Below, in pieces: positions 7,939-61,802 of a stretch of DNA of 64,000 nucleotides. Under the pieces are notes generated by a model that had not been told where the DNA came from, ran no database searches, and was given only the letters and a program-made list of their open reading frames with translations. Numbering within the stretch: the stretch's first letter is position 1; each line of letters begins with the position of its first letter. Source of the DNA: Moorella sp. Hama-1 (lineage in GTDB: Bacteria; Bacillota; DSM-521; Neomoorellales; Neomoorellaceae); assembly GCF_023734095.1 (NCBI RefSeq), contig NZ_AP024620.1:740501-804500 (forward strand), in the 5' to 3' direction. The translations under genes were made by a program, and so were the position numbers.

Positions 7939-8283
7939 CTAAAGGCCCAGCAATATTTTCAACCGCATTTCCACGGCGGCCATAGATTCTGGTGAAATAG
8001 CGCCCCATTTCTCAATGAGCCTCTCCTTAGCTATTGATCGTAAATCTTCACATTTGATAAAGCTGGTGGATTTGACCCCCCCTTCAGGCGGCACTAGTTT
8101 TACATGAAAAGGGATACCCTTATCCCTGGTAGTCAAAGGTATAGCAACTACCAGACCGGCCGGGCCATAATTAAACAGGTCCACGGAAATAATCAGGGCC
8201 GGCCGGGTACCCGTTTGTTCGTGACCGCGTCCCGGGTTTAAATCCACCAACCAAATCTCACCCCGGGCAGGTTCAATTGCCAT
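7939..8283 (-). CDS. MazF/PemK-family endoribonuclease toxin
   Basis: A 114-residue protein with the MazF signature: RGEIWLVDLNPGRGHEQTGTRPA at the N-terminus, then VAIPLTTRD and a conserved CEDLRSI. MazF toxins cut mRNA at short sequence-specific sites. It lies 7 bp downstream of its ribbon-helix-helix antitoxin gene, and both are driven by the promoter at 8556-8585. All expected regions are present, so it looks functional. Confidence 0.88.
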   Translation of the reverse strand: MAIEPARGEIWLVDLNPGRGHEQTGTRPALIISVDLFNYGPAGLVVAIPLTTRDKGIPFHVKLVPPEGGVKSTSFIKCEDLRSIAKERLIEKWGAISPESMAAVEMRLKILLGL

Positions 8284-8290
8284 AATGATT

Positions 8291-8536
8291 CTAGTGCTCC
8301 TTTTCTAAACCATCGTTTAAGGTAGTTTCCCAGGCTTGGCGCTCTTCTTGCTCCACCTGCCACTCCTCGGGGTCTGACTTCAGGGCTGCAAAAGCAGCAT
8401 TGGCCTGTTCCAGGAAACGCCGGCGTTTATAGGCTTCAAGAGCTTTAATCAATATTTCCTGCCGTGATTCTCCGGTAATCTGGCCGATTTCTTTTAGCGT
8501 CGCCAACGCCTCGTCGGAAATACGTGCCATGGGCAT
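8291..8536 (-). CDS. Ribbon-helix-helix antitoxin of the MazF pair
   Basis: An 81-residue protein. Residues 1-45 (MARISDEALATLKEIGQ and SRQEILIKALEAYKRRR) match the CopG/Arc-type ribbon-helix-helix fold; the acidic C-terminus (PEEWQVEQEERQAWE) is the likely toxin-binding tail. The ATG at 8536 has GAGGTGA 6 bases upstream, better than the TTG two codons earlier. It should repress the operon with MazF. Confidence 0.8.
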   Translation of the reverse strand: MPMARISDEALATLKEIGQITGESRQEILIKALEAYKRRRFLEQANAAFAALKSDPEEWQVEQEERQAWETTLNDGLEKEH

Positions 8537-8555
8537 TATCAATCACCTCATCATA

Positions 8556-10701: not shown

Positions 10702-12027
10702 ATGAAAACGAGCCGGGGACCGGCAGACTTAAAACTGTTACAAGAAATGAACCGGGCGAAGGTGCTGGAAACCATCCGCGCCTCCGGCCCCATTGCGCGG
10801 GTGGACATCGCCCGCCAGACCCATCTCAGCCCGACTACGGTTGCCTCCCTGGTGAGTGACCTGATTGCCGATGGCTGGGTCCGCAGCGTAGGGGAGGGCC
10901 GGTCCCGGGGTGGGCGCAAGCCGACCCTGCTGGAGTTCAACGCCCGGGCTGGCTACATCGTAGCGGTCGATGTCACCGATTCTTATCTCACCACCGCCCT
11001 TACGGATTTGAATGCCCAAGAATTGGAGCAGGAACGAACCATCCCCCACCAGCTGGCCGGCGATGCCCTGGCGGAGCGCATCGGCGCGGAGGTGGGCCGT
11101 GTACTTAGCACCGGAGGGGCGCGGGAATTGCCGGTGGTCGGCATCGGTATATCGACCCCCGGTTTGGTGGACGCCGGCGCCGGGGTAATCCGCTACTCCT
11201 TGAAGCTCAACTGGATGGACCTGCCCCTGGGGCCGGCGCTGGCGCAACGCTTTCATAATCCGGTATATGTGGAAAACGACACCAATGCTGCGGCCATCGG
11301 CGAGAAGTGGTTCGGGGCCGGGCGTCCCTTTGCTAACATGGTTTACGTGTCCATAGGCAGCGGCGTGGGGGCGGGGTTGATCCTCAACGGTGAGGTTTTC
11401 CGCGGTTTTACCGGCAGTGCCGGCGAACTGGGCCATATGAGCATCGACAAGGGTGGGGAAAGGTGCGAGTGCGGCAATATCGGCTGCCTGGAAAACCTGG
11501 TTGCCTGGCCGGCCATCTGGGCGCGGGTGACCAAAGCGGTAAAGCGGGGCGTTCCCACGGTAATTACGGAGATTGTTGAAAATATCGACCAGGTGACGCC
11601 GGAAATCTTGAACAAAGCCGCCTTAGCCGGTGATCAGCTGGCGGTCAATGCCCTGGCGGAAGCCGGGGTCAGCCTGGGGATCGGCCTGGCCAACCTTATT
11701 AACCTTCTGAACCCCGAAGCCATTATCCTGGGGGGCAGCCTCCTCGGCGAAAAGAGTTTTATGCTCCAGCATGTCCGCAAAACCATGGCCACCCACGGGC
11801 TGAAGGTACCCGGTGCCGCCGTGCGCCTCATCCCCAACCAGCTGGGCGAGAAGGCCCGCTTGTTCGGGGTGGCCAGTATCGTGCTGCATAACCTTCTGGC
11901 TACCAAGTTCTGGCCCTCCTTTGCGGAAGAAATCGCCGAACCCTCCTTGGCGGGTGAAAACCAGCGCGCCGGCGGTGTCGCCCCAGATAGTACGCCGCCA
12001 CCGGCGAACTACGAAAATGGCGGTTAA
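10702..12027 (+). CDS. ROK-family transcriptional repressor (NagC/XylR type)
   Basis: 441 residues. The N-terminal winged helix-turn-helix (residues ~10-75: VLETIRASGPIARVDIARQT, then HLSPTTVASLVSDLI) is followed by a full ROK sugar-kinase-like domain with VENDTNAAAIGEKWFGAG and the zinc-binding CECGNIGC box. The ATG is preceded by GGAG. It is the first gene of the amino-sugar locus and most likely represses it until an amino sugar or its phosphate binds. The C-terminal ~35 residues are low-complexity and probably disordered. Confidence 0.9.
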   Translation: MKTSRGPADLKLLQEMNRAKVLETIRASGPIARVDIARQTHLSPTTVASLVSDLIADGWVRSVGEGRSRGGRKPTLLEFNARAGYIVAVDVTDSYLTTALTDLNAQELEQERTIPHQLAGDALAERIGAEVGRVLSTGGARELPVVGIGISTPGLVDAGAGVIRYSLKLNWMDLPLGPALAQRFHNPVYVENDTNAAAIGEKWFGAGRPFANMVYVSIGSGVGAGLILNGEVFRGFTGSAGELGHMSIDKGGERCECGNIGCLENLVAWPAIWARVTKAVKRGVPTVITEIVENIDQVTPEILNKAALAGDQLAVNALAEAGVSLGIGLANLINLLNPEAIILGGSLLGEKSFMLQHVRKTMATHGLKVPGAAVRLIPNQLGEKARLFGVASIVLHNLLATKFWPSFAEEIAEPSLAGENQRAGGVAPDSTPPPANYENGG

Positions 12028-12161
12028 CTTGTGAGGGGTAAGGTAGGAGCTGGCGGGTACGGGCGAAAGGCGACTTGGTTGGAGGCGTAAGCAAACTAAG
12101 CGAAGCCGCGCCGCGGCGGCGGTGAACGGGATGGGGATCGTAGCGTAGGTAGTTGTGAAAA

Positions 12162-12341
12162 GGGTAAGGCAGGTTCCCGGAGGGCGCCTTTGCGCCTTAG
12201 TTCAAAGAGCGGAGCAGGCCGAGGAAACAGCGCGGCCACCTGTTTGAGGCCCGCAGGGCCGAGTTTGGCCGCGCCCAAGGCCTGCGAAGCTCGCACACGT
12301 ATAAGGGCGCAACCAGCGCCCGGAGGGAACCTGCCTCACCC
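12162..12341. ncRNA. 180-nt nested extended hairpin (structured RNA or MITE candidate)
   Basis: Six helices nest inside one another: 12162-12178 with 12325-12341 (17 bp, one mismatch); 12182-12187 with 12316-12321; 12190-12199 with 12302-12312; 12214-12220 with 12279-12285, flanked by GAGC/GCTC; 12230-12238 with 12266-12274 (9 bp perfect); and an apical GGCCC/GGGCC hairpin at 12248-12260. The element sits in the 500-bp gap between the ROK regulator and the oxidoreductase. No open frame here is credible. It could be a regulatory or small RNA, or a non-autonomous element whose 17-bp outer arms are terminal repeats. Confidence 0.55.
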
Positions 12342-12529
12342 TAGCAGCAGGATGACATTAACATATTTTTACCAGAACCCCTTTTCCGGGGAGGTGATTT
12401 TTAATGTAGATGGTAAAGCACGCCATTTTTGGGCTTAGGTAGAAAGCATAATCGGGAAGAGGAATAAAGTGGAGGTCGTACATTTTTTACTTATTTGGCG
12501 TTAATGCCACTAAAGGGAGAGATGGATCA

Positions 12530-14647
12530 ATGGCCAATTTTCCCAACCTGTTCAAACCAATTCGCATCGGCGATCTGGAGTTAGCCAACCGCATTGTCCA
12601 CGTACCCACCGATATCAGTTCCTCCCATGCCGACGGTTCCGTCAGCGAGCGAGATATCCTGCATCACGCCGAAATCGCCAGAGTCGGCACCAGCTTGATC
12701 ATCGTCGGCGCCACCAGCCCGGACGGTAAAACCGGCCGGCCGACGGTAACCTCCCTGGTTGCCGACGGCGACAACTACATCCCCGGCCTGGCCCGCCTGG
12801 CGGAAGCCATGCACCGTTACGGGGCCAAATGCGCCGTCCAGCTGCAGCACCCCGGCCGCCAGGCCGCCATCCCGCGTTACAACACCATGTCCACCAACGA
12901 CATGGTCATCAAGGTCCCCTGGTCGGCGGGCCACGAGGTAATTTACGCCAATGCCGAAGAGAAGGGCAAACAGGCCCGGGCCATGACGGTCGAAGAGGTC
13001 CTGGACATGATCGAACTCTTCTCCGAGGCCGCCTGGCGGGTCCAGCAGGCCGGCTTTGACGCCGTAGAACTCCACGCCGCCCACGGCTACCTCCTGGCCC
13101 AGTTCATGAGCCCCTACACCAACCGCCGCAACGACCGTTTCGGCGGCTCCCTGGAGAACCGCCTGCGCTTCCCCCTGGCCATCATCGACCAGATTCATAA
13201 GAAATGCGGTCGTGACTTCCCTGTCATCGTCCGTTACTCGGTGGACGAGTGGATCCCAGGCGGCCGTGACCTGGAAGAAAGCAAAGCGGTAGCCCGCATG
13301 TTCGAGGAAGCCGGGGTGGCCGCCTTAGACCTCAGCCAGTGCATCACCGAAACCCCGGGGGCCGGTTTCGACCCCATGTATTATGAGCAGGGCTGGACCA
13401 TTTACGCCTCCGAAGCTATCAAAAAAGTTGTCAACATCCCGGTCATCAACAGCCACACCCTGCGCGATCCCGAATACTGCGAGCAGATCCTGGCCGCAGG
13501 TAAGACCGACCTGGTCGGCCTCTCCCGCCAGCTCCTCGCCGACCCTTACTGGCCGGTCAAAGCCCGCCAGGGTAAAACCCAAGAGATCCGCCGCTGCATC
13601 TCCTGCCTGGTAGGTTGCTGGCAGGAATCCATGCTGGCCAAGAAAGAGATCCGCTGCGCCATCAACCCGGCGGTGGGCGATGCCCGCTACGGCCGCATGC
13701 AAAAAGCAAAACAGAGCCTGAACATCGCCGTCGTGGGCGGCGGGCCGGCCGGCATGGAGGCCGCGCGGTTAGCCGCCATTCGCGGCCATAAAGTGACCAT
13801 CTTCGAAAAGACCGGCGAACTGGGCGGGGCCATCCTCGGCTGCTGCCTGGTACCGGGCAAAGAAAAGATGAAGTGGTACGCCGACTGGATTCGCCGCCAG
13901 ATCAAATCCCTGGGGGTGGCGGTCCGCTACCGCACCCAGCCCACGGTGGACGACCTGCGTACTTACGATGTCGTCGTCAACGCCACCGGCGCCAGTTCCT
14001 ATGTCCCCGACCTGCCCGGGGCCGACGGCAGCAATGTAGTAAGGTTTGAAGAAGTCATGGCCTGCCCGAAACGGACCTGCGAGAATTATCCGGGCGACCG
14101 CCAGATGACCCGGGTCGGCGAGCGGGTAATCGTGTGGGGCGACCATTTCCAGGCCGTCGATACGGCCCAGTTCCTGGCCTCCATCGGCAAGCAGGTGACT
14201 ATCATAACACCGAACCGGGAACTGGGGGCCACCATCGAGCCGGTGCACATGTACGTGGTACGCAAGCGCTTTAACCAGACCGATGCCGAAGCCTTAACCT
14301 CGAAGCCGTACAAGCACCCGGTCCGGGTCATCACCAGCGCCACGCTACTGGAGATTCGTGCCGACGCAGCCGTCATCATGGACCGGGAGTTCAACCGTAT
14401 CACCCTGCCCGCCGATACTGTCGTCCTGTGCCAGGTGCAGCCAAATAGCGGGCTGTTCAATGAGCTGCTGGCCGCCGGCCTGAAAGTAGTTAACGTCGGC
14501 GACGCCGTCCGCGCCCGCAATTTAAAGGCGGCTGTAGCCGAGGGCGCCAACTTCGGCCTCATGATTGACGGTGACACCCCCTTCAATACCAACGGCGCCC
14601 TTATGGACGACATCCCCCTGGATGTCCGGTTGGAACTCGGATTGTAG
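12530..14647 (+). CDS. NADH:flavin oxidoreductase, 2,4-dienoyl-CoA reductase type
   Basis: 705 residues in the three-part FadH/trimethylamine-dehydrogenase arrangement. An old-yellow-enzyme TIM barrel (FKPIRIGDLELANRIV, VELHAAHGYLLAQFMSP, NRFGGSLENR-like RFGGSLENR) is followed by an iron-sulfur motif (CISCLVGC, then C with NP). The C-terminal Rossmann region has VVGGGPAGMEAARLAA and a second dinucleotide-binding fold. Such enzymes reduce C=C or related bonds using FMN, FAD and 4Fe-4S. Here it is the first structural gene of a sugar locus rather than a lipid one, so the substrate may be an unsaturated or keto-sugar. GGGAGAG precedes the ATG. Confidence 0.88.
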   Translation: MANFPNLFKPIRIGDLELANRIVHVPTDISSSHADGSVSERDILHHAEIARVGTSLIIVGATSPDGKTGRPTVTSLVADGDNYIPGLARLAEAMHRYGAKCAVQLQHPGRQAAIPRYNTMSTNDMVIKVPWSAGHEVIYANAEEKGKQARAMTVEEVLDMIELFSEAAWRVQQAGFDAVELHAAHGYLLAQFMSPYTNRRNDRFGGSLENRLRFPLAIIDQIHKKCGRDFPVIVRYSVDEWIPGGRDLEESKAVARMFEEAGVAALDLSQCITETPGAGFDPMYYEQGWTIYASEAIKKVVNIPVINSHTLRDPEYCEQILAAGKTDLVGLSRQLLADPYWPVKARQGKTQEIRRCISCLVGCWQESMLAKKEIRCAINPAVGDARYGRMQKAKQSLNIAVVGGGPAGMEAARLAAIRGHKVTIFEKTGELGGAILGCCLVPGKEKMKWYADWIRRQIKSLGVAVRYRTQPTVDDLRTYDVVVNATGASSYVPDLPGADGSNVVRFEEVMACPKRTCENYPGDRQMTRVGERVIVWGDHFQAVDTAQFLASIGKQVTIITPNRELGATIEPVHMYVVRKRFNQTDAEALTSKPYKHPVRVITSATLLEIRADAAVIMDREFNRITLPADTVVLCQVQPNSGLFNELLAAGLKVVNVGDAVRARNLKAAVAEGANFGLMIDGDTPFNTNGALMDDIPLDVRLELGL

Positions 14648-47624: not shown

Positions 47625-49538
47625 ATGAATAGAATTACCCGCACCCTGGCCTTGATAACCGTTGACGCTGTAGCAGTCAATGCTGCTTTGTTTTTAGCTT
47701 TATGGCTGCGCTTTGACGGCGTTATTAAACCTGCCTACATAAACGACGCCTTGCGAATAGCGCCCTTTGCCACCTGTATCTACATAGCTTCCTTTTACTT
47801 TTTCCGGCTGTACAATCGTCTCTGGCAGTATGCCAGCATCAACGAGCTGCTGGCCATCGTCACGGCTACCCTGGCAGGCTCCATGGCCGGCGTTTCCCTG
47901 GCCTATTTCCGCATGGCTGCCGGTACCTTCCCCCTGCCGCGCAGCATTTTTGTGCTGTGGACGATCTTAATTATCGCCCTGGTGGGCCTTTCCCGCCTTT
48001 CCTGGCGCCTTTTCCGCGAGTACCGCTTCCCGGTAGCGCGCAATGGTGGACGGGCCGTGCTGATCGTCGGCGCCGGGGATGCGGGGGCCATGGTGGCCCG
48101 TGAATTCCGCAGTCGCAGTAATGATTACGGCAGCGAGGCGCACCCCGTAGGTTTTGTCGATGACGATCCCCATAAGCAGGGCCGCACCCTGTACGGCCTG
48201 CCGGTCCTGGGCACCAGGGATGATATACCCCGGCTGGTGGAGGAGCTTAGTGTTGAAGAAATCGTCATCGCCATGCCTTCGGTGCGGGGCCGGGTTATCC
48301 GGGAGATCGTGGAGATCTGCCACGGTACCGGCGCCGCTTTACGCATCCTGCCGGGCATCTATGACCTGCTGGACGGCACCGTAAAGGTCGATCCTATCCG
48401 CGAGGTAAGGATTGAAGATATCCTGGGCCGGGAGCCGGTCCGGGTGGACCTGGCGGCCATGGCCGGTTACCTGGCGGGGGAAACGGTCCTGGTGACCGGC
48501 GCCGGCGGTTCCATCGGTTCGGAACTCTGCCGCCAGGTGGCCGGCTTCGGCCCCGCGCTGCTGATTTTGCTGGGCCACGGCGAGAACAGTATTTATGAAA
48601 TCCACCAGGAGTTAAGCCGCAATTTCCCGGATATCAAGCTCGTCCAGGCTGTTGTAGATGTGAAGGACGAGGCTGCCGTTGACCAGCTTTTCCGGAAGTA
48701 TAAGCCGGCGGTGGTTTTCCACGCTGCCGCCCACAAGCATGTGCCGCTGATGGAAATGAACCCCGCCGAGGCCATTAAGAACAACGTCCTGGGAACGCGG
48801 GTAGTGGCCCGGGCGGCGGATAAGCATCGCAGCAAGGTTTTCGTCCTGATTTCCACGGATAAAGCCGTCAATCCTACCAGTATCATGGGGGCATCGAAGC
48901 GGGTAGCGGAGATGGTGGTCCAGGAAATGGCCCGGCGGAGTAAAACCCGTTTCGCGGCCGTGCGTTTTGGGAATGTTTTAGGCAGCCGCGGCAGTGTGGT
49001 ACCTTTATTCCAGCGCCAGATTGCCGCCGGGGGGCCGGTGACGGTGACCCACCCGGAGATGACCCGCTACTTTATGACCATCCCCGAGGCGGTGCAGCTG
49101 GTCATCCAGGCCGGCGCCCTGGTCCGGGGCGGGGAGATCTTCGTCCTGGATATGGGCGAGCCGGTGAAAATAGTAGACCTGGCGCGGAGCATGATTATCC
49201 TGTCCGGTTACGAACCGGAAAGGGATATTGAAATCGTCTTTACCGGCATCCGGCCGGGGGAGAAGCTCTATGAAGAGATCCTGACGGCCGGGGAGGGAGT
49301 CAACGCCACTTCCCACGAGCGCATCTTTATTGCCCGGCCGGAGGAATTCGACGCCGCCGGGCTGGAGCGTTTCCTGTGGCTAGTTTCCCAGCCCGGCTGG
49401 CGCGCCGACATGGCCGGGGGGGAAGAATTGCTGCGCCTGGTCCTGCCGGGCTTCCGGGTGGAAAAGGGGCAGGAACTCGTGCAGGTGGGGGAGGTGGTTA
49501 GCTTTGGCAAAGAAGTTATACGAGGACATGCTCTTTAA
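47625..49538 (+). CDS. capD: CapD-type membrane nucleotide-sugar dehydratase/epimerase
   Basis: 637 residues. Four N-terminal membrane helices (residues ~10-115) are followed by a first Rossmann domain (VLIVGAGDAGAMVAREF) and a second SDR domain with TGAGGSIGSELCRQV and LISTDKAVNPTSIMGASKR, the pattern of UDP-HexNAc 4,6-dehydratases such as PglF/CapD. The end GEKLYEEILTAGEG and [17 protein letters not shown] recurs in three fragments downstream. The last ~15 residues (VSFGKEVIRGHAL) replace the usual end 'QVG' and overlap the next gene, so the 3' end was probably rebuilt at the junction near 49.5 kb. It likely makes a 4-keto-6-deoxy amino sugar. Confidence 0.9.
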   Translation: MNRITRTLALITVDAVAVNAALFLALWLRFDGVIKPAYINDALRIAPFATCIYIASFYFFRLYNRLWQYASINELLAIVTATLAGSMAGVSLAYFRMAAGTFPLPRSIFVLWTILIIALVGLSRLSWRLFREYRFPVARNGGRAVLIVGAGDAGAMVAREFRSRSNDYGSEAHPVGFVDDDPHKQGRTLYGLPVLGTRDDIPRLVEELSVEEIVIAMPSVRGRVIREIVEICHGTGAALRILPGIYDLLDGTVKVDPIREVRIEDILGREPVRVDLAAMAGYLAGETVLVTGAGGSIGSELCRQVAGFGPALLILLGHGENSIYEIHQELSRNFPDIKLVQAVVDVKDEAAVDQLFRKYKPAVVFHAAAHKHVPLMEMNPAEAIKNNVLGTRVVARAADKHRSKVFVLISTDKAVNPTSIMGASKRVAEMVVQEMARRSKTRFAAVRFGNVLGSRGSVVPLFQRQIAAGGPVTVTHPEMTRYFMTIPEAVQLVIQAGALVRGGEIFVLDMGEPVKIVDLARSMIILSGYEPERDIEIVFTGIRPGEKLYEEILTAGEGVNATSHERIFIARPEEFDAAGLERFLWLVSQPGWRADMAGGEELLRLVLPGFRVEKGQELVQVGEVVSFGKEVIRGHAL

Positions 49539-50592
49539 AATGATTGCAGAGAAAAGCAGGGAACGTTTGCTTGAGTTCCTGGCAGCCCTGCCTCCAGAAA
49601 CAGACAGGAACTTTGAACTATATCTCACTAAAATGGCCCAGAAAATACCTGATATTAATGGCCTGCTAACGGAAGTCCTCGAAAAGCCTCCAGTGACGGG
49701 AGAGGAAAAAGCAGACCCGATAGCCTTCGCCTGCTTCTTTGCCCTGAATATCTATTACCGTCATAGGAGAGACATAACAAAAGTCCATGATATTATAGAG
49801 AAATATAGGCACCGCTTCAGTCATCATCCCATGTTTCCCCACGTTGTATCCCTTTATTATAGAAGCACTGGCAGTATCAAAGACCTAAAAACAGCGTTAG
49901 ACTATGCTCAGCAGGCTGCTCAACTGATGCCGGAAAATCCAGGCGTCCAGCACAGCCTGGCCGAAGCCTTAATTAATTTGATGGATGAAGGGGAAATCGA
50001 AAAATCGGAAGCCAATTTAAACAGGGCCGAGGAAGCCATTAATAAAGCCATTATGCTGGAGGCAACCTATCCTAAATTTTATAGTACCAGGGGGAGATTG
50101 TTGGCTCTTAAAGGGATGTTCAAGGAAGCCCGGGAAGCAGTAGAGCAGGCGATAGATATGGAAGACTCCACAGCTCATGATTACCCCATTCGCTACAGCG
50201 GGTATCAAGATATTTTAGGGAAAATAAGGCAAATGGAGTTTTCCCGGCAGGTTGATAAGAAGCTGGCTGAAGCGGAAGGAAAAATTAATAAAGCAAGGCA
50301 GGAAACAGAGGAGCAGCTTAAACAATTCCGGGTGCAGAATTTGGAGTTTTTGGGCTTGTTTGCAGCCATTATTTCCTTTACAGTGGGCAGTATTCAATTT
50401 GTTTCCAGGTTGACCTTTGAGCAAGGAGTGATTTTGCTATTAATTTTTACCGGCAGTTTATTATACATTTATAGTGGGTTAAGTATAGTATTACACGGCA
50501 GAGCATATCTGTCTAGGACTATAATAGTACTGGCCCTGGCCCTCATTTTGTTTTTTGTTTCTCTGGCCTTCAAAGGAGTTCTGGTTAAATAA
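49504..50592 (+). CDS. TPR-repeat membrane protein
   Basis: 362 residues. The middle holds tetratricopeptide-like helices (PMFPHVVSLYYRSTGSIKDL, VQHSLAEALINLMD, YPKFYSTRGRLLALKGMF), then a charged coiled coil (QVDKKLAEAEGKINKARQET) and two or three membrane segments at the C-terminus (VILLLIFTGSLLYIY, IIVLALALILFFVSLAFKG). So a cytoplasmic sensor part is anchored at the inner membrane. The start is TTG with a GGGGGAGG site. Its stop overlaps the PP2C ATG as TAATG. I do not recognise the family. Confidence 0.75.
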   Translation: MAKKLYEDMLFKMIAEKSRERLLEFLAALPPETDRNFELYLTKMAQKIPDINGLLTEVLEKPPVTGEEKADPIAFACFFALNIYYRHRRDITKVHDIIEKYRHRFSHHPMFPHVVSLYYRSTGSIKDLKTALDYAQQAAQLMPENPGVQHSLAEALINLMDEGEIEKSEANLNRAEEAINKAIMLEATYPKFYSTRGRLLALKGMFKEAREAVEQAIDMEDSTAHDYPIRYSGYQDILGKIRQMEFSRQVDKKLAEAEGKINKARQETEEQLKQFRVQNLEFLGLFAAIISFTVGSIQFVSRLTFEQGVILLLIFTGSLLYIYSGLSIVLHGRAYLSRTIIVLALALILFFVSLAFKGVLVK

Positions 50593-51464
50593 TGAAAGTA
50601 ATACGTTTAGAAGCGATTTCTTTAGCCGGGAGCGACATAAATGAAGACCTGTACGGTTATGACGCTCAAGCTTTCTGGGTAATGGATGGCGCCACAGCTT
50701 TAGTTACACCGTATACCGGAGATGCTGCCGCGGAAGTTTGCTGGTTGATAAATAAGGTGGATGGAATTATAAGGAGCGGGATTAAGGAACGAAACGCCGC
50801 TTTGCCAGAAATAATGAGTATGGCTGCCTTGACGGTAAGGCAGGAGTTAGCTGGCAATGAAAATCGGCAGCCCTGGGAATTTCCGAGTTGCAGTATAGCG
50901 CTGGCAAGGGTAAACAAGGATTTTCTTGAATATTTCTTGCTCGGCGATGTGACCCTGGCTTTTAAATCCGGTGAAGAATTGAGGGTCATCAGCGATGATG
51001 CCATAAGAAAACTTGATGCAAAGGCGATTAAAGAAAAATTGCGTTTCCAGGCGGAAGGATTGACTTCTGCCGCCGCCAGGCAGGCCATACTCCCGATTTT
51101 GCGCCGGCACCGGTCCTTGATGAACACACCTGGCGGGTATTGGATTTTCAATGGCAGCCCCGAAGCGATTAAGAATGCCCTGACAGGAACGATTAATTTG
51201 GATAAGGGCAGTGAGTTTATTTTGGCAACAGACGGTTTCGCCAGGCTGGTTGACACTTTTCATGTATATCCTACCTGGGGCTTTTTGTTTCATGACCTGA
51301 AAAAAAGTTCCCTCACTGAATTGGCCGAACGGCTCCGGCAGCTAGAACAAGACGACCTGGAATGCCTGCAGTACCCCCGCTTTAGCCCCCACGATGATGC
51401 TACGGCTTTATATGTAGAGTTGGGGCATGAAGCCGAAAGGCGCACCTCATCAACCTCTGCATAA
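50592..51464 (+). CDS. PP2C-like phosphatase domain protein
   Basis: 290 residues. NEDLYGYDAQAFWVMDGATAL matches the PP2C motif with metal-binding Asp-Gly, LLGDVTLAF and ATDGFARLVDTF are later PP2C motifs, and FSPHDDATALYVEL is the C-terminal metal-binding 'DDAT' box. It should remove phosphate from serine or threonine, probably on a partner. Translational coupling to the TPR-membrane protein suggests a two-protein signalling or defence module; this is inference. Confidence 0.8.
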   Translation: MKVIRLEAISLAGSDINEDLYGYDAQAFWVMDGATALVTPYTGDAAAEVCWLINKVDGIIRSGIKERNAALPEIMSMAALTVRQELAGNENRQPWEFPSCSIALARVNKDFLEYFLLGDVTLAFKSGEELRVISDDAIRKLDAKAIKEKLRFQAEGLTSAAARQAILPILRRHRSLMNTPGGYWIFNGSPEAIKNALTGTINLDKGSEFILATDGFARLVDTFHVYPTWGFLFHDLKKSSLTELAERLRQLEQDDLECLQYPRFSPHDDATALYVELGHEAERRTSSTSA

Positions 51465-51479
51465 GGACGGCTGGTAGGC

Positions 51480-51855
51480 GGCCCTATTTGATTGAGCGTC
51501 TACGGCACGGACTATCCCACCCCTGATGGCCTCTGCATCCGCGACTACATCCACGTCGATGACCTGGCGGCAGCCCACGTCCTGGCCCTGGAAGCCCTGG
51601 AGCAGGGCAGCCCTAAGGCGGCCTATAACCTGGGCAGCGGCCGGGGTTATTCGGTTCTGGAGGTAATCCGGGCGGCGGAAAAAGTGACGGGGAAAAAGGT
51701 GCCCTACCGTGTCGGTCCCCGGCGGCCCGGCGGTGCTGGTAGCTTCGGCAGAAAAAGCCATGGCAGAGTTAGGCTGGCAACCGCGATATACAGAACTGGA
51801 GGACATCATTGCTACGGCCTGGCAGTGGCACCGCCGCAGGCCGCGGGTATCTTAA
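51480..51855 (+). pseudogene. galE C-terminal fragment 1 (frameshifted)
   Basis: It reads [37 protein letters not shown] and [20 protein letters not shown], then, after a frameshift near 51.72 kb, [20 protein letters not shown] and a stop at 51853. This is the C-terminal half of UDP-glucose 4-epimerase. The NAD-binding half is missing, so it is inactive. It begins right after the PP2C gene, with no spacer that looks like a normal promoter. Confidence 0.85.
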
Positions 51856-51864
51856 AGGACCATC

Positions 51865-51896
51865 GACCGGCCTGCTTAAACCCGGCCGGTCTTTGA
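51865..51896 (+). terminator. Hairpin terminator after galE fragment 1
   Basis: A perfect stem GACCGGCC/GGCCGGTC (51865-51872 with 51884-51891) is followed by TTTG. It lies 10 bp past the galE-frame stop. Confidence 0.55.
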
Positions 51897-52150
51897 TGCC
51901 AGGGCGACCTTAAGCTCAGGTCTGGAGGTTAAGTATCGATGTTTAAGGGCAAGAACCCTTAGCAGTTCAGCCTCGCTGGTGATGTCAGGTATCTTTTCAG
52001 CCAGGTCATCTGGCTGCTCCACTAATAAAGTCTTTATCTTCGCTTCCACTTCGGGAGACGTGGTACCTAGGCGTTTCCTTAACTGTCTTAAAAGGATTCC
52101 TGCCGGCCCTGCTGCTAGCCTTTTAAATACTAGGATGTGGATAATTCCAT
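51876..52150 (-). pseudogene. C-terminal fragment of an Rpn/DUF4351-type protein
   Basis: On the minus strand an open frame reads LLRQLRKRLGTTSPEVEAKI, KTLLVEQPDDLAEKIPDITS and EAELLRVLALKHRYL. This resembles the DUF4351-type C-terminal tail found on Rpn/PD-(D/E)XK transposase-like nucleases. A ribosome site plus ATG (AAGGAGG, then ATGGAATTATCC) lies on the minus strand near 52.15 kb in another frame, which suggests a second truncated gene start fused to it. An N-terminal Rpn fragment is found separately at 55235-55459. Confidence 0.5.
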
Positions 52151-52434
52151 AATCCGTTGCACCTCCTTGGGTTGGATTTTTTTGGCAGCTTCTGTTGTAG
52201 AGATTTTTCTTCTTGGGCGCTAAGAGAATTAAAATAAAGGAAAACGCCTTTTAAATGGTGTAGCTATAAATTTTATTTGCCAACAATTTCCTTATGAAGT
52301 GGTTAGAGCTGTTTTTCTTGTGCCCGGCCGGAGTTATCCGTACGACATTACTAATATTCCCCCGGTACAAATTCAAATATGCGTAAAAGAAGAGCGGTGT
52401 ATAAAATCTATTGAGCAATGGAGGTGCAGTAACG

Positions 52435-52668
52435 GTGGATTTTAAAGAAGTAGTTGAGCAGATAAACCAATATCTTGCCCGGGTAACTATTGAACAATTT
52501 GAGAGTGATTTACAGAAAGCCGGGATTGAGCAATGTCCCGATATTGGGGAGGAAGCAGATTGTGAATGGCAACCCGAAAGGCTAATCGTTGAATATAGTG
52601 TTCTTGAGGAACCATATAGCGACTTGACAAATGGTTATATTGCTATTGCAAATGGTGAGGCGGCATGA
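52435..52668 (+). CDS. Small protein paired with a SecB-like gene
   Basis: 77 residues starting VDFKEVVEQINQYLARVTIE, with QFESDLQKAGIEQCPD in the middle. Small proteins of this pattern occur beside SecB-like or toxin genes. The GTG at 52435 has GGAGGTG 8 bases upstream; a TTG 24 bp earlier is in frame. It overlaps the SecB-like start by 4 bp (ATGA at 52665). I cannot give a function; an antitoxin-like role is a guess based on layout. Confidence 0.65.
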   Translation: MDFKEVVEQINQYLARVTIEQFESDLQKAGIEQCPDIGEEADCEWQPERLIVEYSVLEEPYSDLTNGYIAIANGEAA

Positions 52669-53096
52669 TAGACAAGTCTATAGAGAGCCAGTTAATTTTT
52701 CGTGGGTATAAAGTATTACATTTATCTTATAAATTAAATTAGAACTTCAAGTCACTGAAGAATAAGTCTATACCGCTAGAGTTCAAAGTATGGAGTGAAT
52801 CAACTGTTGATGAAACAAATAATGAGATTACCGTTGATCTATTTTGCAATATATTTGAAGAAAGCCCCGAAAAAGATAATCCATTTCACTTAGAAGTTAA
52901 TTTACGGGGCTGGTTTAAAACTAACTCTACTGTTGAAAAGAATGAGTTGTATCGTTATGCAGAAATTAACGCCCCGGCTATTCTTTTTCCCTTCTTGAGA
53001 ACAGTTGTTTCGAGTATTACTATGGCTGCAAATGTTCCACCCGTAATACTTCCATTAGTTAACATCAATCGTTTAAATGAGCTTCAAAAACAATAA
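52665..53096 (+). pseudogene. SecB-like chaperone with one in-frame amber codon
   Basis: Reading from ATG 52665 to TAA 53094-53096 gives 143 codons interrupted only by TAG at 52740-52742 (codon 26). The protein after the stop has the SecB-like fold text IPLEFKVWSESTVD, HLEVNLRGWFKTNS and the strongly conserved AILFPFLRTVVSSITMAANV followed by PPVILPLVNI. SecB-like proteins act as export chaperones or as the chaperone in toxin-antitoxin-chaperone modules. The rest of the frame is undamaged, so the stop is recent, suppressible or regulatory. Confidence 0.75.
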
Positions 53097-53133
53097 GAAT
53101 CGCGCAATGGTCACTGAGTTAAAATAGTACTTA

Positions 53134-53257
53134 GAAACAAGAAGTCGTTATGGAAGTTCGCCAGGCGAAAGGGAATAAATTTACTATCCTGCAGATTGAG
53201 AGCGCTTATTTACAAATGCAAGAGTGGGGCATGCTATCGCCGGATGGAGAGGCGTAA
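53134..53257 (+). pseudogene. 3' fragment of a DUF4065 gene
   Basis: About 36 codons, reading [20 protein letters not shown] then [15 protein letters not shown] and stop, are nearly identical to the end of the intact DUF4065 gene at 60576-61100. The fragment is joined directly to a capD fragment at 53258, and the same join is found at 61.1 kb. Confidence 0.85.
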
Positions 53258-53609
53258 AGCGCAACGTCCTGGGCAGCCGGGGCAGCGTGGTACCTTTATT
53301 CCAGCGCCAGATTGCCGCCGGGGGGCCGGTGACGGTGACCCACCCGGAGATGACCCGCTACTTCATGACCATCCCCGAGGCAGTGCAACTTGTCATCCAG
53401 GCTGGCGCCCTTGTCCTAATGCCACTTCCCACGAGCGGATTTTCATTGCCCGGCCGGAGGAATTCGACACCGCCAGGCTGAAGCGCTTCATGTGGCTGGT
53501 CTCCCAGCCCGGCTGGCGGGCCGACATGGCCGGGGTGGAAGAACTGCTGCGCTTGGTTCTGCCGGGCTTTCGGGTAAAGAAGGGACAGGAAATGGTACAG
53601 GTGGGTTAG
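53258..53609 (+). pseudogene. capD 3' fragment A (internal deletion)
   Basis: The frame [20 protein letters not shown] and [19 protein letters not shown] matches capD from about codon 450. After AGALV it jumps, with a change of frame, to the region NATSHERIF and [20 protein letters not shown], and ends VKKGQEMVQVG. About 150-200 bp between the two parts are missing. The fragment ends just before the DUF218 gene. Confidence 0.88.
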
Positions 53610-53631
53610 GTTGTTTACTGTGTACCACAAT

Positions 53632-54243
53632 ATGAAAGCACTAAAACATAAAGGCCTGGGGCTGTTAATTATTACCGCAGGTCTCTTTTTATTTTTGTTG
53701 ACAACGAGAAGTTTCTGGTTACCGTTTGCTGCTCGCTGGCTGATGGTAGGAGACAAAGATTTACATCCTGTCGATGTGATTATTGTCCTCTCGGGTGAAC
53801 AGGGCGAGCGGGTGGCGACCGGGGTAAAGCTCTACCAGGAAGGCCTAGCTCCAAGGCTTCTGATGACCGGCGGCCCTGTAGAATGGAACGTAGCAGCGGC
53901 TGACATCATGGCGGAACAGGCAAAATTCCTGGGGGTACCGGAAAAGGATATCGTCCTGGAAAAGCGGGCTACCAGCACCTATGAAAATGCCCTTTGCAGC
54001 CTTAATATTTTAAAGAAAAATGGCTGGCATTCGGCCATTGTCGTTACTTCTCCTTATCACCTGCGGCGCACCAGGATGACTTTTAACAATGTATTTCGGG
54101 GCAGTGGCATCCGTTTGAGCTTCTACGGGGCGGAGGATCCGTGGCTGGATCCTACCCGCTGGTGGCTCCAGGACCGGGGGATAGAAGTGGTGGGCCTGGA
54201 GTATTTTAAGCTGGCCTGGTATGTGATTCATAATGGGATTTAG
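53632..54243 (+). CDS. DUF218 (YdcF/SanA-like) membrane-associated protein
   Basis: 203 residues. One N-terminal membrane segment (LGLLIITAGLFLFLLTTRSF) is followed by the DUF218 fold: VDVIIVLSGEQGERVATGVK, LLMTGGPVEWN, RATSTYENALCSLNIL and SPYHLRRTRMTF. The family includes YdcF and the vancomycin-resistance protein SanA, and is linked to cell-envelope metabolism. The ATG at 53632 is preferred but no strong ribosome site is visible; a TTG at 53611 is in frame. Its stop is directly followed by galE fragment 2. Confidence 0.82.
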   Translation: MKALKHKGLGLLIITAGLFLFLLTTRSFWLPFAARWLMVGDKDLHPVDVIIVLSGEQGERVATGVKLYQEGLAPRLLMTGGPVEWNVAAADIMAEQAKFLGVPEKDIVLEKRATSTYENALCSLNILKKNGWHSAIVVTSPYHLRRTRMTFNNVFRGSGIRLSFYGAEDPWLDPTRWWLQDRGIEVVGLEYFKLAWYVIHNGI

Positions 54244-54485
54244 TCCTGGAGAAGGCCCTGGCCTCCTACAGCCGCGCTTACAATTTCCGGGCCATACCCT
54301 TACGTTACTTTAACGCCGCCGGGGCTTCATCAGTAGGGGATATCGGGGACGGTGGTGCGGGACTACATCCAGTCGATGACCTGGCGGCAGCCCATAATCT
54401 GGCCCCGAAAGCCCATCATGGGGGGCAGATGCGGAGGATCTTGCTGACGGGCAAGGATGAGGAGAAAAAGAGGGTAGGTATTTAA
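54243..54485 (+). pseudogene. galE fragment 2 (internal deletion)
   Basis: The frame reads VLEKALASYSRAYNFRAIPL then RYFNAAGAS, the central part of UDP-glucose 4-epimerase. It continues, through a damaged stretch, to [15 protein letters not shown] (normally [16 protein letters not shown]) and ends at 54485. It starts on the last base of the DUF218 stop codon. NAD-binding and C-terminal parts are missing. Confidence 0.8.
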
Positions 54486-54815
54486 ATATAGCTTTATGAC
54501 CATTACGTTCATTAAACGGAGTGGGTACGGCGATGGTACGGTGATGTTCGTCCTGGCCGGTTAAGTGCAATTTAACACCCGGGATAAGTCCTGCTGTACC
54601 AGCAGCCGGCCGTGCCTGCTGCAGTCATACCGCTGTAACAACTTTAATACTTTCTCGTGATACGGAAAACTTTTTTCAGGCAGGGAACTTAGACTGGCAG
54701 GTAGTCCTTCGCATCCTGCCGGTAACGTTTACGGCAGCCGGGTTCCCGGCCGCTGACGAAATTAGCCACTTCCTTTAGCCCCTGCTAGAATGAGGGGCGA
54801 AAGGAGGTGAGCACC
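54486..54815. other. Non-coding gap before the phage-like gene
   Basis: I see no gene. The last 40 bases hold TGCTAGAAT, a possible extended -10 element, and a strong AAAGGAGGTG ribosome site for the next gene. Confidence 0.35.
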
Positions 54816-55151
54816 ATGGCCAAAGTGACAGCGCCCCTCATGTCCCTGGATGCCAGCGGCGCCCTAGGGAAGGCTCTGGTCTTTGCCAAATGGAAGGGGA
54901 TCAATTATGCCCGGCGTTATTTTGTGCCCATGAACCCCAATACTGAGAACCAGGAAAGGGTCCGCGGCTACTTCACTCAGGCGGTGACCAGTTGGCAGGG
55001 GGAGAGCCCTGAAACCAGGGCCATGTGGAACGCGGCCGTGCGCGGCCGGCCGCTGACGGGGATGAACTACTACCTGGCCCAGTATATCAAGTACCTTTCC
55101 AGCCATAACGGCCAGGCCCCGGCCCTGCCCTTCCTGCCCCCGGGGCAGTAG
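54816..55151 (+). CDS. Small conserved, phage-related hypothetical protein
   Basis: 111 residues, starting MAKVTAPLMSLDASGALGKA with VFAKWKGINYARRYFVPMNP, a pattern I associate with short proteins found in prophage-like regions of Firmicutes. AGGAGGTG is 6 bases from the ATG at 54816. No function can be assigned. It stands alone between gene fragments. Confidence 0.65.
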   Translation: MAKVTAPLMSLDASGALGKALVFAKWKGINYARRYFVPMNPNTENQERVRGYFTQAVTSWQGESPETRAMWNAAVRGRPLTGMNYYLAQYIKYLSSHNGQAPALPFLPPGQ

Positions 55152-55173
55152 CAGTCCTGAAGCAGTCAGCCGG

Positions 55174-55203
55174 GAAGCGGCAGGCCGGCGGCTTTGCCGC
55201 TTC
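55174..55203 (+). terminator. Hairpin after the phage-like gene
   Basis: A 9-bp perfect stem GAAGCGGCA/TGCCGCTTC lies 22 bp past the stop. There is no strong T-run, so it may be only a weak terminator. Confidence 0.4.
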
Positions 55204-55234
55204 TCACCACTGTAGCTTGCTGGAGTTTCTACAT

Positions 55235-55459
55235 TTAAACGAGAATGGTATCGGAGGAAGCCCTGGCCGTAAGATTTTTAGTTCCCTTTACATCCAGAGC
55301 CACTTCCTTTTCAACTGTGCCTATTGCTAAGATATCAACTAAAGGCCAGGTATCCGTATAATCGATTAAGGCATGGGCCGCAGGGAAGAAGAGCTCCATA
55401 AACTCCCGGAAAAAGGTAGTAAGCAGTCCCTTGAACAAGCGGTCGTGCTCAATGGACAT
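55235..55459 (-). pseudogene. N-terminal fragment of an Rpn-family nuclease
   Basis: 74 residues; MSIEHDRLFKGLLTTFFREF and MELFFPAAHALIDY are the conserved start of Rpn/PD-(D/E)XK recombination-promoting nucleases. After residue ~40 the match fades and the frame ends early, before the catalytic core is complete. A C-terminal piece of the same class is at 51876-52150 on the same strand, so one ancestral gene may have been split by recombination. Confidence 0.65.
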
Positions 55460-55673
55460 TGGCAGTTTTTCCTATTTTTCTTTATTTTACTTGAGAGGGC
55501 CCGGCTGAGCAAGGGTTATTTTTTTAATATATTGGCAAAGGCCTGGCCCCGGAGCTACGGTCCCGGCCAGTTCCCCCGACGAACATGACCAGACATCATT
55601 CTGGGCGGTAATGGTCGTTCTTTTTGGATATATTTAGCCATTGAACTCAATTCACAAGGAGGGCGCCGAACTG

Positions 55674-58600
55674 GTGGCAACTTTTGATTCGATAACCACT
55701 GAACTGATAGCGGCCCTGGAAGAAGAGATCAATGCCATCAAGGAGTCTGGCGGGACGGAGCAAATAGGAGTCCACGATGGAAGGTACGGAGGCACTGCCG
55801 CGGGCCGCTTTCTATATATTTTTTTGCTTGATACCGAACTCAATATTCCCTCCGATACCCCGGCTCAACTCCGTATTGATAAGGATTCACACGAGACCAT
55901 CATATTAAGCGTTCAGGGGTTTGAGATCACGCTGGGCATACAGGATGACCTGGGCCCCTTTATCCCTAAGGCGGTCCTGAGCCTTTCCGCCTACTACTTA
56001 TTAGAACAGTTGCAGCGACGCCTGGATGAAATTCGCACCGGCGTACTTCCTGCCGAACGGGATATGTGTATGCGGCTTTTTGCGTTCCAAGCCAATGTTC
56101 CCTTTCCCAATGTTAAACCTGCCGCCAGCCTTGGAGACTTGAACAGGGAACAAATGGAGGCAGTCAACCGGAGCCTGGGACAGCGAGTCACATTCATCTG
56201 GGGCCCGCCGGGAACGGGGAAGACACGGACCATTGGCGCCCTTGTGCGGGAGTTGGTCCGGCGTGGGGACCGTGTACTGGTTACGTCCCACACGAACGTG
56301 GCTGTAGATACGGCCTTGATTCCCGTTATCAAAGCCCTGGATGATAACGAAATCCAGGGTGGTGCCGTGGTACGGGTAGGCGCACTGGCCCGGGAGGACC
56401 CGGAATTGCAACAGGTGACGATGGAGGCCGTGCTTGAGAGGAAAAGCAAGGATTTAAGGCAGCAACAGCAAGCGCTGGGGGTCGAGCGCAAGAGGGTGCA
56501 GGGAGTGCGGGACCAGTTGGCTGCTACTATCCGGGTTATCGAGACTGTTGAAAAGTCAGAGCAGCTTGTCGCAACAGCAAAGATTGCCCTGGCTGGAGCC
56601 GAACAGAAGGTGCAAGAAGAAGGGAACGCTATCTCGCAGGCCCGTAAAACCCTTGGTGATTTGCATAGTAAGCTGCAGCAAGCTGAAGCGGCCGGGTTCA
56701 TTCGACGGGTCTTTTTCGGTTTTAACCCGGAGGTCATCCGCCGTCAGATCGTCAATCAAGAAACTGTAATCACAAAGCTGGAGGCAGCTTATCAGGTTGC
56801 CCAGCAGGAGAGAAAGGCCGCCAGCGTCGCCCTATCGGAGGCTGAACGCCGGCAGGCCAAAGACCGGCAGGCTCTGGAAAGTCTGGGGCCGTTGCCTCCT
56901 CTCCCGGAACTTCGGCAGCAGCTGGGTGAGGTCGAGAAAAACCTCAAGCAATTAGATGAGCAATTGGCCGCCATGGAAGCCCGGCTGCATGCAATGGCGG
57001 CGACCGTGATTCGCGACGCCAGAATCGTTGGAGCGACTTTATCTCGACTGGTGCTTTTGGAAGAACTGTACCGGGGCACCTTTGATACAGTAATCATCGA
57101 CGAGGCCAGTATGGTTCCCCTGCCCAATCTATTGTTTGCCGGTAGCCGGGCGCAGAAGCGCGTGGTGGTCACAGGTGATTTCCGGCAGCTGCCCCCAATT
57201 GCAACCGCCCGGGACGCTGAAAAGTATCCCCTGGCTGCCAGATGGTTACAAACCGATATTTTTGTTAAGGCCGGTATCGTGGAGGGCCGGGCAAGGTTGG
57301 ACGATCCCCGGTTATGTGCGCTGAAGGTGCAGTATCGCATGCATGAGGCCATTGGTGAAGTGGCCAATATGCTGGTCTATGAGCATGACGGGAACCCGCT
57401 CGAGCACAGGGCGGACCCCCAGAAATATGCTCATGCAACTGCGGCTCTTCCGGAATCCGGGGAGCCCCTGGTCCTGTGTACCACATCGGGTGCCAATCCC
57501 TGGTGCGGCCGGCTAGACCCCGGCTTCTCCCGCTACAATATTTACAGTGCTATAGTCTCCATCCGGCTTGCCGCCCGGGCCCTGGCCAGCGGCGCCCAAA
57601 ATGTTGGATTGGTGGCGCCGTACAGGGCTCAAACTCGCTTGTTGCAACACCTGGTGGAGCAATACAGACTTCCCGGGGAAAGAGTTGAAACGGCAACCGT
57701 GCACAGGTTCCAGGGCAACGAGAAAGATGTTATTATCTTCGACCTGGTGGATAGTCCCCCGTTTCAGATTGGGAAGCTTCTCTCTGGCGGCTGGGGCTCC
57801 GAAGCTATGCGCTTGTTCAATGTGGCCTGCACCCGGGCAAAAGGTAAGTTGGTGATAGTGGCCCACCATGACTATCTGAGCCAAAAAGCTTCTGCGGGTG
57901 ATTCCCTGGCCACCCTGCTGCAGCATCTGGAGCAGCACGGCAAGATCATGGACGCCCGTATGGTGGTCCAGGATTACGCCGACCCGGCGGTTAAGACCGC
58001 ACTGGGAGCAGTTATGCCGGCAGGCCGGCAGCTGGGAAATCCCGAAGGTGCTACGCACTTCAATGAAGGAAATTTTTACCCTGCTTTTCTGGAAGATTTG
58101 CGTGACGCCGCCGGAGAAGTAGTTATATTTAGCCCTTTCATCGCCGAGCGACGCCTGGCGGACATAATCACTCCTTTGCGGCGCCTGGTAGACCGCGGGG
58201 TACCGGTACTGGTGGTAACCAGGGAGCGGCATGAGTCCAACCAGGTTACGGAGGAATTAATTCGTCAGTTATCTACAATAGGTATTAAAGTGTTGCGCCG
58301 CAGAGGCTTGCATGAAAAGCTCGCCTTCGTGGATCGGAAGATCGCCTGGTTCGGCAGCTTGAACATTCTTTCCCACAGCCGGAGCAGTGAGGTGATGATC
58401 CGGTTCTCCCAGCCGGAGCTGGTGGTGAGGCTGATGGAACTCTCAGGTACGGTGTACCTGCTTAAGCAAGAGGAACGGCGGTCTGTACAAAAGCACCGCC
58501 TTACCGAGCTGGCTGCTGCTTTAAAGAAGCGGATGGCGTTTCCATCCTGTCCTTTTTGTGGTGGTCCCACCGAGCTCAGGACGAGCAAGTATGGGCCCTT

Positions 58601-58799
58601 CTTTGGCTGTGCTTCCTACCAGCATGGCGGTTGTAAAGGATTGATTAACATCCCACACCGGGTGCTGGAACTGGCGGTTCAGGACCTGGAGCTTACCTGT
58701 CCGCATTGCGGGGGGAAGGTTGTTCTCAAATCTGGCCGCAACGGGGCATTCCTGGGCTGCAGCCGGTACCCGGACTGCCGCTGGACTGATTCCTTTTAA
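55674..58799 (+). CDS. SF1 helicase-PLD nuclease fusion (Mokosh type II-like)
   Basis: About 1041 residues. Order of parts: an N-terminal domain (1-160); Walker A FIWGPPGTGKTRT (~177); a long coiled coil (~250-450) inserted in the helicase; Walker B VIIDEASMVPLPNLL (~474); GDFRQLPPIA (~500); HRFQGNEKDVIIFD (~677); ACTRAKGKLVIVAHH (~719); a phospholipase-D motif HEKLAFVDRKIAWFGSLN (~879); and two topoisomerase-type zinc ribbons (CPFCGG... and CPHCGG...). The helicase is the Upf1/COG1112 class. A helicase of this class fused to a PLD nuclease is the layout reported for Mokosh type II anti-phage defence. The GTG at 55674 has AAGGAGG upstream; TTG 55641 is an alternative. Confidence 0.85.
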   Translation: MATFDSITTELIAALEEEINAIKESGGTEQIGVHDGRYGGTAAGRFLYIFLLDTELNIPSDTPAQLRIDKDSHETIILSVQGFEITLGIQDDLGPFIPKAVLSLSAYYLLEQLQRRLDEIRTGVLPAERDMCMRLFAFQANVPFPNVKPAASLGDLNREQMEAVNRSLGQRVTFIWGPPGTGKTRTIGALVRELVRRGDRVLVTSHTNVAVDTALIPVIKALDDNEIQGGAVVRVGALAREDPELQQVTMEAVLERKSKDLRQQQQALGVERKRVQGVRDQLAATIRVIETVEKSEQLVATAKIALAGAEQKVQEEGNAISQARKTLGDLHSKLQQAEAAGFIRRVFFGFNPEVIRRQIVNQETVITKLEAAYQVAQQERKAASVALSEAERRQAKDRQALESLGPLPPLPELRQQLGEVEKNLKQLDEQLAAMEARLHAMAATVIRDARIVGATLSRLVLLEELYRGTFDTVIIDEASMVPLPNLLFAGSRAQKRVVVTGDFRQLPPIATARDAEKYPLAARWLQTDIFVKAGIVEGRARLDDPRLCALKVQYRMHEAIGEVANMLVYEHDGNPLEHRADPQKYAHATAALPESGEPLVLCTTSGANPWCGRLDPGFSRYNIYSAIVSIRLAARALASGAQNVGLVAPYRAQTRLLQHLVEQYRLPGERVETATVHRFQGNEKDVIIFDLVDSPPFQIGKLLSGGWGSEAMRLFNVACTRAKGKLVIVAHHDYLSQKASAGDSLATLLQHLEQHGKIMDARMVVQDYADPAVKTALGAVMPAGRQLGNPEGATHFNEGNFYPAFLEDLRDAAGEVVIFSPFIAERRLADIITPLRRLVDRGVPVLVVTRERHESNQVTEELIRQLSTIGIKVLRRRGLHEKLAFVDRKIAWFGSLNILSHSRSSEVMIRFSQPELVVRLMELSGTVYLLKQEERRSVQKHRLTELAAALKKRMAFPSCPFCGGPTELRTSKYGPFFGCASYQHGGCKGLINIPHRVLELAVQDLELTCPHCGGKVVLKSGRNGAFLGCSRYPDCRWTDSF

Positions 58800-58840
58800 G
58801 GTGGCCTTTCGCGCAAAACTATAACCCGGGCTGGACGGCT

Positions 58841-58974
58841 TATAACTTATCTTCCGCACTGATTATTCAAGTCGCATGAATATAATCTTTGTGAGTCTAG
58901 TAGCAGATGGTATCGAAGTATATATACCTCATAGTTCAAGGCTAACCGAGAAGGGGTGCGGAAAATAAGTTATA
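58841..58974. repeat. 19-bp inverted repeats bracketing 96 bp
   Basis: TATAACTTATCTTCCGCAC (58841-58859) and GTGCGGAAAATAAGTTATA (58956-58974) are inverted copies with one mismatch. They span nearly the whole gap between the helicase-PLD gene and the WYL gene. The arms could form a stem in the RNA, act as operator half-sites, or be the ends of a small element. Confidence 0.6.
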
Positions 58975-58987
58975 GAGGTGGTACTGG

Positions 58988-59608
58988 GTGGCCATTTATC
59001 GCAAATGTAAATACTGTGGGCAGCCTATCAGCCTCAGGGAGATGCCCGCAGGTCAGTGGGTGGCCTTTGATGTGGGCACGGACAATGTACATCACTGTGA
59101 TTCCAGGCCTGCCATCACTCCACCGGCCGTATCCGCGGTAGCGGCAACGCTGGATACCAGAACCGTGACCGCCAGCCCAGTAGTTACCACGGGTTCAGAG
59201 CAAATCCGGATGCTCTTGAAAAAGGCGCTGCATGAGCACCGCTGTGTGCATCTTATCTATTACACGGCCTCCAGGAAAGCGCTTACCGACCGGGTGGTGG
59301 AGCCGCTGGCACTGGAACCAGGGGACTGGGGTGGTACCGTTCTTCGGGCGTACTGTCGCTGGCGCCAGGATATGCGGTCGTTTGCCCTCTCTAATATCCG
59401 GCGGGCGGAGCTGCTGGAGGAGACGTTTTCACCGCGCTCACTTTCACGGTCCCAGCCTATCGCTGTTTATAGAACGTCGATTTCCGGCCGGGCTTCAACT
59501 CAGGCAAGCAGCAAGACGCCATCTACAGCCTCAGAATCTACGGGTTGTATCTGGTGGTTGATACTCGTTGGAATGGCCCTTTTGTGGCTGCTCTTTGGTA
59601 GCCGGTGA
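58988..59608 (+). CDS. WYL-domain protein with zinc finger and membrane anchor
   Basis: 206 residues. An N-terminal CKYCGQPI with a later HHC looks like a small zinc-binding motif. Residues ~75-150 are a WYL-like ligand domain (HRCVHLIYYTASRKALTDRV, RAYCRWRQDMRSFALSNIRR). A Ser/Thr-rich linker leads to one C-terminal membrane segment (WWLILVGMALLWLLFGS). WYL domains sense nucleic acids or nucleotides in defence and CRISPR loci, usually with a winged helix, which is lacking here. GAGGTGG precedes the GTG start. It likely works with the helicase-PLD gene upstream. Confidence 0.75.
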   Translation: MAIYRKCKYCGQPISLREMPAGQWVAFDVGTDNVHHCDSRPAITPPAVSAVAATLDTRTVTASPVVTTGSEQIRMLLKKALHEHRCVHLIYYTASRKALTDRVVEPLALEPGDWGGTVLRAYCRWRQDMRSFALSNIRRAELLEETFSPRSLSRSQPIAVYRTSISGRASTQASSKTPSTASESTGCIWWLILVGMALLWLLFGSR

Positions 59609-59615
59609 TGATTAG

Positions 59616-59921: not shown

Positions 59922-60001
59922 ATACGGAGGCAAGCAGGAAAATAAAGTTTTATGCAGAACATATATTCTAAACTTCTTAATAACAAATTGGGGATGGTCC
60001 T

Positions 60002-61627: not shown

Positions 61628-61802
61628 GGAGTGGCCCGGCTAAACAGTGATACGTATACTCACCTGAAACAATGTTGATGGGTAATAAATAATACGTTTT
61701 TAATAGGGGAGAAGGAAGGAAAAAAAGAATTGATGGTGAACATTAATTCTAACAACCATAACTAAATCCCAAAACCTGCAATTCGAAAAAAAGGGGGGGG
61801 GA

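Follow-up and report, generated by a model that had tools for sequence, protein, structure and literature searches.

The window, that is, the whole 64,000-nt stretch of the Moorella sp. Hama-1 chromosome analysed here (bases 740501-804500 of 3,324,617), carries a gene for a ROK-family regulator (10702..12027, plus strand) and, further downstream, a gene for an OYE-type FMN/Fe-S oxidoreductase (12530..14647, plus strand), the latter followed by sugar ABC-transporter genes. Between them lies a 180-nt imperfect palindrome (12162..12341, plus strand), hereafter the H core, which is recognised by its fold, its copies and its covariation. The first-pass annotation had placed it between the regulator and the downstream operon and had found it explained neither by a gene nor by a standard terminator, and both statements stand: there is no convincing gene on the H core, which is overlapped only by a mechanically called 82-aa ORF with a TTG start, and a consensus scan gave no intrinsic terminator at the hairpin. 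When the window and related loci were searched against Rfam, no family matched the element at the gathering score, and a permissive scan returned chance-level matches only.

Folded as plus-strand RNA, the H core has a minimum free energy of -113 kcal/mol, compared with a shuffle mean of -75.6 (z = -8.27, none of 200 shuffles equal), and the minus strand gives -113.3 (z = -8.52). The fold is present at the stated coordinates and far stronger than in shuffles on both strands; roughly six helices follow in series up to an apical CCC-GCA-GGG loop. The 17-nt outer arms (12162..12178 and 12325..12341, plus strand) are unbroken on the minus strand, where G-U pairing bridges the position that is a single A/C mismatch in plus-strand RNA.

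The 180 nt hold as a core but not as the full extent of the element, since conserved sequence runs past both sides. By its conserved ends, the window copy reaches from about 11994 to 12393. On the plus strand it consists of a remnant of block A, the 5' element end (11994..12046, boundary approximate, from alignment with other copies); block B (12047..12161), the 5' half of another core fused to H; the H core; block D, the 3' element end, which finishes in ...CCAGAACCCCTTTTC (12342..12386, from alignment with other copies); and CGGGGAG (12387..12393), the 3' copy of a 7-bp target resembling a Shine-Dalgarno (SD) sequence, after which the host sequence resumes with GTGATT. The anatomy of elements in the same genome was taken from stretches around the copies. 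A complete element is ordered as the target nnnGGAG, block A (CCCCTCATGGGGGCTGACGCCCCCGCCAGCGAACAATGAAAATG...), a hairpin core, block D (...CCATTTTTGGTAGAAGTCTATTTTC) and a second nnnGGAG, usually followed by a gene start, and it measures 135-450 nt. After removal of the 7-bp duplication, the true ends are CCCCTCATGG... and ...CTATTTTC, which are not inverted relative to each other; the arms of H that are inverted are internal, far from either end of the element.

Between the A and D ends we found at least three distinct long imperfect-palindrome cores, namely H, type I and type III. The type I core is about 240 nt (GGGCTGGCGGGTACAGG ... CCTGTACCGCCAGCCC), and 79 distinct full cores were collected. 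The type III element is about 135 bp, with AAACTGGC-GCA-GCCAGTTT, and has a 3' end of its own, ...CATCTCATTTC. Six copies in the Hama-1 genome, that of the window included, are chimeras in which the type I 5' half (block B) is joined to H at an identical junction. Cores also differ at one and the same aminotransferase gene, where the Hama-1 genome (L058) and G010 (L166) have type I while G009 (L010) has H. Two further features were considered and rejected. One was a conserved tiny ORF in block A (SD-CCCCTC-ATG, with attractive spacing), whose length and frame vary (3, 10, 11, 19, 24 codons and others) while the hairpin stem shows compensatory changes, so that a conserved peptide is not supported; the other was a promoter in block D, where a TTGACA-17-TAGAAT-like sequence is visible by eye in some H copies and the window copy has no match. 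As separate observations, the 3' half of type III (e.g. L229, L233) has a repeated CACCTCC which resembles the 16S rRNA anti-Shine-Dalgarno sequence and which, by eye, is absent from H and type I. In G004, G006 and G011 (e.g. G011:C122:5239-5324) there are short forms in which only the outer arms of H remain, joined head to tail, which would fit loss of the inner helices by deletion.

The proposed search for other copies in the genome was run and found them, with 12 matches to the hairpin query in the Hama-1 chromosome. H-core matches occur in 7 of 10 congeners, or in 8 of 11 Moorella genomes when Hama-1 is counted; two fragmented, incomplete Moorella assemblies together contain dozens, some of which lie at the ends of contigs. 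The type I signature is found 114 times in the Hama-1 genome (reversed-pattern control, 0), compared with 22 in G009, 24 in G010 and at most 9 in the other relatives. There are 176 A ends (control 28) and 135 D ends (control 8) in the Hama-1 genome, roughly 127-148 A or D ends over control for the chromosome, and the copies diverge by 5-20%. These counts indicate that the family is expanded in the Hama-1 lineage. By exact pattern search of GTDB contigs, the carriers are Moorella thermoacetica, M. sulfitireducens, Moorella sp. UBA4076 and a Clostridia MAG; scattered exact matches in unrelated taxa look like chance. Elsewhere in the family, only short relics were found, in one of seven genomes of other genera.

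The joined flanks of ten insertions in the Hama-1 genome were searched in congeners and the matched sites were read. Empty sites were found in relatives for lysC, glyA, rplL, hisS, purS (G010) and purH (G008), and at the relatives' lysC, glyA, rplL, purS and hisS sites the insertion falls in the SD sequence. For example, the empty lysC site reads gattctGGAGGAGgttactATG and the occupied one ...GGAGGAG, then CCCCTC...TTTTC, then AGAGGAGgttactATG. The empty glyA site is TTTTCGAAGGAGGcct, and the occupied one has CTAAGGAG before the element and GAAGGAGGcct after it. Between rplJ and rplL the empty site is cataAGGAGGaattt, and the element is flanked by AAAGGAG and AAAGGAGGaattt when the site is occupied. 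This last insertion (L043, around 3270619-3270791 of the Hama-1 genome) is a type I element located at the SD of rplL, with a ribosomal protein L10 leader (RF00557) upstream of it, and the congener sites L161 and L162 are empty.

In permutation tests over all usable copies, with copies treated as independent, the two flanks match in excess of permutation before the GGAG end at -5 (p = 0.0006), -6 (p = 0.037) and -7 (p = 0.0086) and at none of the positions from -8 outward (joint test, p = 0.0003). The match extends through -7 and ends at -8, which indicates duplication of a 7-bp target that finishes in GGAG, imperfect in many copies, so that the downstream gene retains an SD at a normal distance from its start. 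A separate test of the type III copies had only a small and very uniform set to work with. When 63 3' ends were sampled, SD-like sequence was present in 59, and 15 adjoined another element. Of the remaining 48, 31 have an ORF in the same orientation, 100 aa or longer, that begins 6-30 nt further along; a control stretch gave 10. The SD bias may be a target preference, or it may arise from selective loss of insertions elsewhere, and part of the spread could be due to gene conversion. A tandem array was also seen at 86000-89200 of the Hama-1 genome (L228), with a type III element, a shortened type I element and another type III element before a glmU-like gene; every repeat begins at the SD closing the preceding one.

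At the window site, the ROK and oxidoreductase genes of two congeners (G001, G002) are paired without an intervening element; the empty sequences are ttatccGGAGGAGGTGA in G001 and tatacaGGAGGTGAT in G002. This points to an insertion in the window strain rather than a conserved switch. The 3' end of the window copy (12378-12399) reads CCCCTTTTC, CGGGGAG, GTGATT, and the duplicated CGGGGAG is delimited by the empty sites L174 and L175 and by the duplication length. The 5' duplication is unrecognisable because the 5' tip has decayed: the first ~18 nt of block A, which in intact copies read CCCCTCATGGGGGCTGAC, have decayed or are missing. At this site the element used as its target an SD-like GGAGG that lies about 130 nt ahead of the oxidoreductase, rather than the SD belonging to the next annotated gene. 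The oxidoreductase lies outside the element with its own SD, and by comparison with the empty sites its leader layout is preserved despite the insertion. At the other side, block A encodes the last ROK codons (tail ...PPANYENGG) and contains the stop codon (12025-12027), which the insertion evidently shifted into the repeat.

Compensatory changes had been named as a second check, and covariation was indeed found among the repeat copies. H has 11 pairs with two-sided changes compared with 5.5 in shuffles, and its covariation score is 0.181, with shuffles at 0.114 and slid controls at most 0.075. The two-sided changes above shuffles support selection on the hairpin. A structured RNA is a possible cause, but a DNA palindrome would show the same covariation, and the ratio of G-U to A-C cells is 41:39 for H; for type I it is 284:194, a slight plus-strand excess. 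The inserted element may also be a structured RNA.

From these results, we consider it highly probable (roughly 85%) that the hairpin is the exchangeable core in one copy of a non-autonomous, target-duplicating mobile Moorella repeat that inserts at SD sequences. The data support entry into AGGAG-type sequences, mostly the SD of a gene, and growth of tandem arrays by insertion at the SD closing an earlier copy. The SD would be cut with a stagger by an enzyme supplied in trans; the simplest assumption is a DNA enzyme whose cuts are staggered by 7 bp. Insertions would persist since they are near-neutral for translation, and the palindromic core would be retained for folding, as single-stranded DNA in mobility, as RNA in the messenger, or both. 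The copy in the window, a B+H chimera, went into the GGAGG closing the ROK gene and added the ROK tail, and its 5' tip decayed later. As for the mobiliser, none was found: the stretches read contain no ORF or autonomous copy between A and D ends, and no Y1 transposase (PF01797) is encoded in the Hama-1 genome.

The first-pass annotation had offered a cis-regulatory RNA, a small RNA or a MITE. The mobile kind is borne out by the many copies, the presence and absence among species and the target duplication, but a strict MITE is not, as the ends are not inverted. The suggestion that the hairpin controls the neighbouring operon is not supported, since the two congeners keep the regulator and the oxidoreductase without it and other copies precede unrelated genes. 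More generally, a family of cis-regulatory hairpin leaders, with the copies forming a regulon, would agree with the strong fold, the covariation and the elements lying co-oriented with, and near, downstream genes. We nevertheless find it quite unlikely: orthologous genes of congeners have no element, so that the position before the same gene is not conserved; the downstream genes are unrelated (rplL, hisS, efp, glyA, purH, lysC and others); different cores stand at one orthologous gene; H is without a G-U bias; and Rfam offers no match. A further rival is that these are old repeats without present mobility that spread and exchange solely through homologous recombination between copies. The chimeras, the core swaps at one site and the 5-20% difference between copies speak for it, but it is very unlikely in view of the new-site insertions with target duplications against empty sites and of the 114 type I signatures in the Hama-1 genome, compared with at most 24 in relatives.

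Two other routes of mobility were weighed against insertion of a trans-mobilised repeat. A SINE-like retroelement, whose RNA would be reverse transcribed and inserted at SDs possibly exposed during transcription, could account for a target duplication without terminal inverted repeats and for the shared orientation of element and target transcript, and the Hama-1 genome has one intact reverse transcriptase, inside a group II intron. This proposal is unlikely and has no direct support: SD sites alone impose co-orientation, H has no G-U bias, and the intron enzyme has no visible link to the A or D ends. Movement by a Y1 (RAYT) transposase, as for REP/REPIN-type palindromes, is disfavoured as extremely improbable. 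The modular palindromes dispersed between genes do recall REPINs, but the genome richest in copies has no Y1 transposase, the Moorella elements are far longer than REPs, and they have target duplications. Single-strand insertion by Y1 enzymes is not known to make such duplications.

Rickettsia palindromic elements (RPEs) are known for in-frame insertion within ORFs. These elements (named in PMC10969869) resemble the trans-mobilised Moorella repeat in that a palindromic repeat comes to code for a stretch of protein, which in Moorella is the C-terminus of ROK, encoded by block A; there, however, the coding arose by chance where a gene ends. Small mobile hairpin repeats are, as a kind, well known (PMC3049150, PMC10969869, PMC3116915). 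The MITEs, including ERIC and Correia, are likewise short, non-coding, dispersed, palindromic, target-duplicating and probably trans-mobilised (PMC10969869). The Moorella repeat is short, non-coding and in many copies, and it has a target site duplication (7 bp ending in GGAG), but it differs in its SD target and in having no terminal inverted repeats at its true ends; no parent transposon was found in the stretches read. The BOX elements of Streptococcus pneumoniae share a modular layout of constant ends and variable middles (here A and D ends around H, type I or type III) and are tightly folded, intergenic, clustered, nested and found in few related species (PMC3049150). They are reported with terminal inverted repeats, and SD targeting is not described there (PMC3049150); the Moorella cores are longer, and unrelated hairpins replace one another. 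REPs and REPINs are also high-copy extragenic palindromes in mosaics (PMC3116915, PMC2817692), and REPs measure 20-40 bp and are tied to Y1 transposases (PMC3733652, PMC2817692). The Moorella repeat is set apart from its nearest kinds (MITE, BOX, ERIC) by SD targeting, the absence of terminal inverted repeats and the exchangeable cores. The open-access literature, which leaves out most subscription papers, yielded no earlier account of this Moorella repeat or of small repeats that target SDs. A bolder reading is doubtful: a bacterial mobile element of a new class that would target the SD itself, which it might recognise in the form of RNA or single-stranded DNA while transcription is under way, with insertion in operons translationally silent by design and cores swapped as cargo between shared ends.

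A ribosome-binding site that is regenerated as a landing pad would explain the tolerance of well over 100 insertions, some of them in essential operons (rplJ-rplL). It also provides a testable model of neutral repeat spread in operons, of long hairpins added to mRNAs and of altered protein ends, and it implies that structured leaders in Moorella need an empty-site check before they are read as riboswitches. Elsewhere in the window, two adjoining small ORFs on the minus strand (7939-8542) resemble, from their translation, a MazF-type toxin and an antitoxin, and at 48981-63991 there are several direct repeats, 155-300 nt long and diverged (families D1-D5), which probably represent paralogues within a polysaccharide locus.
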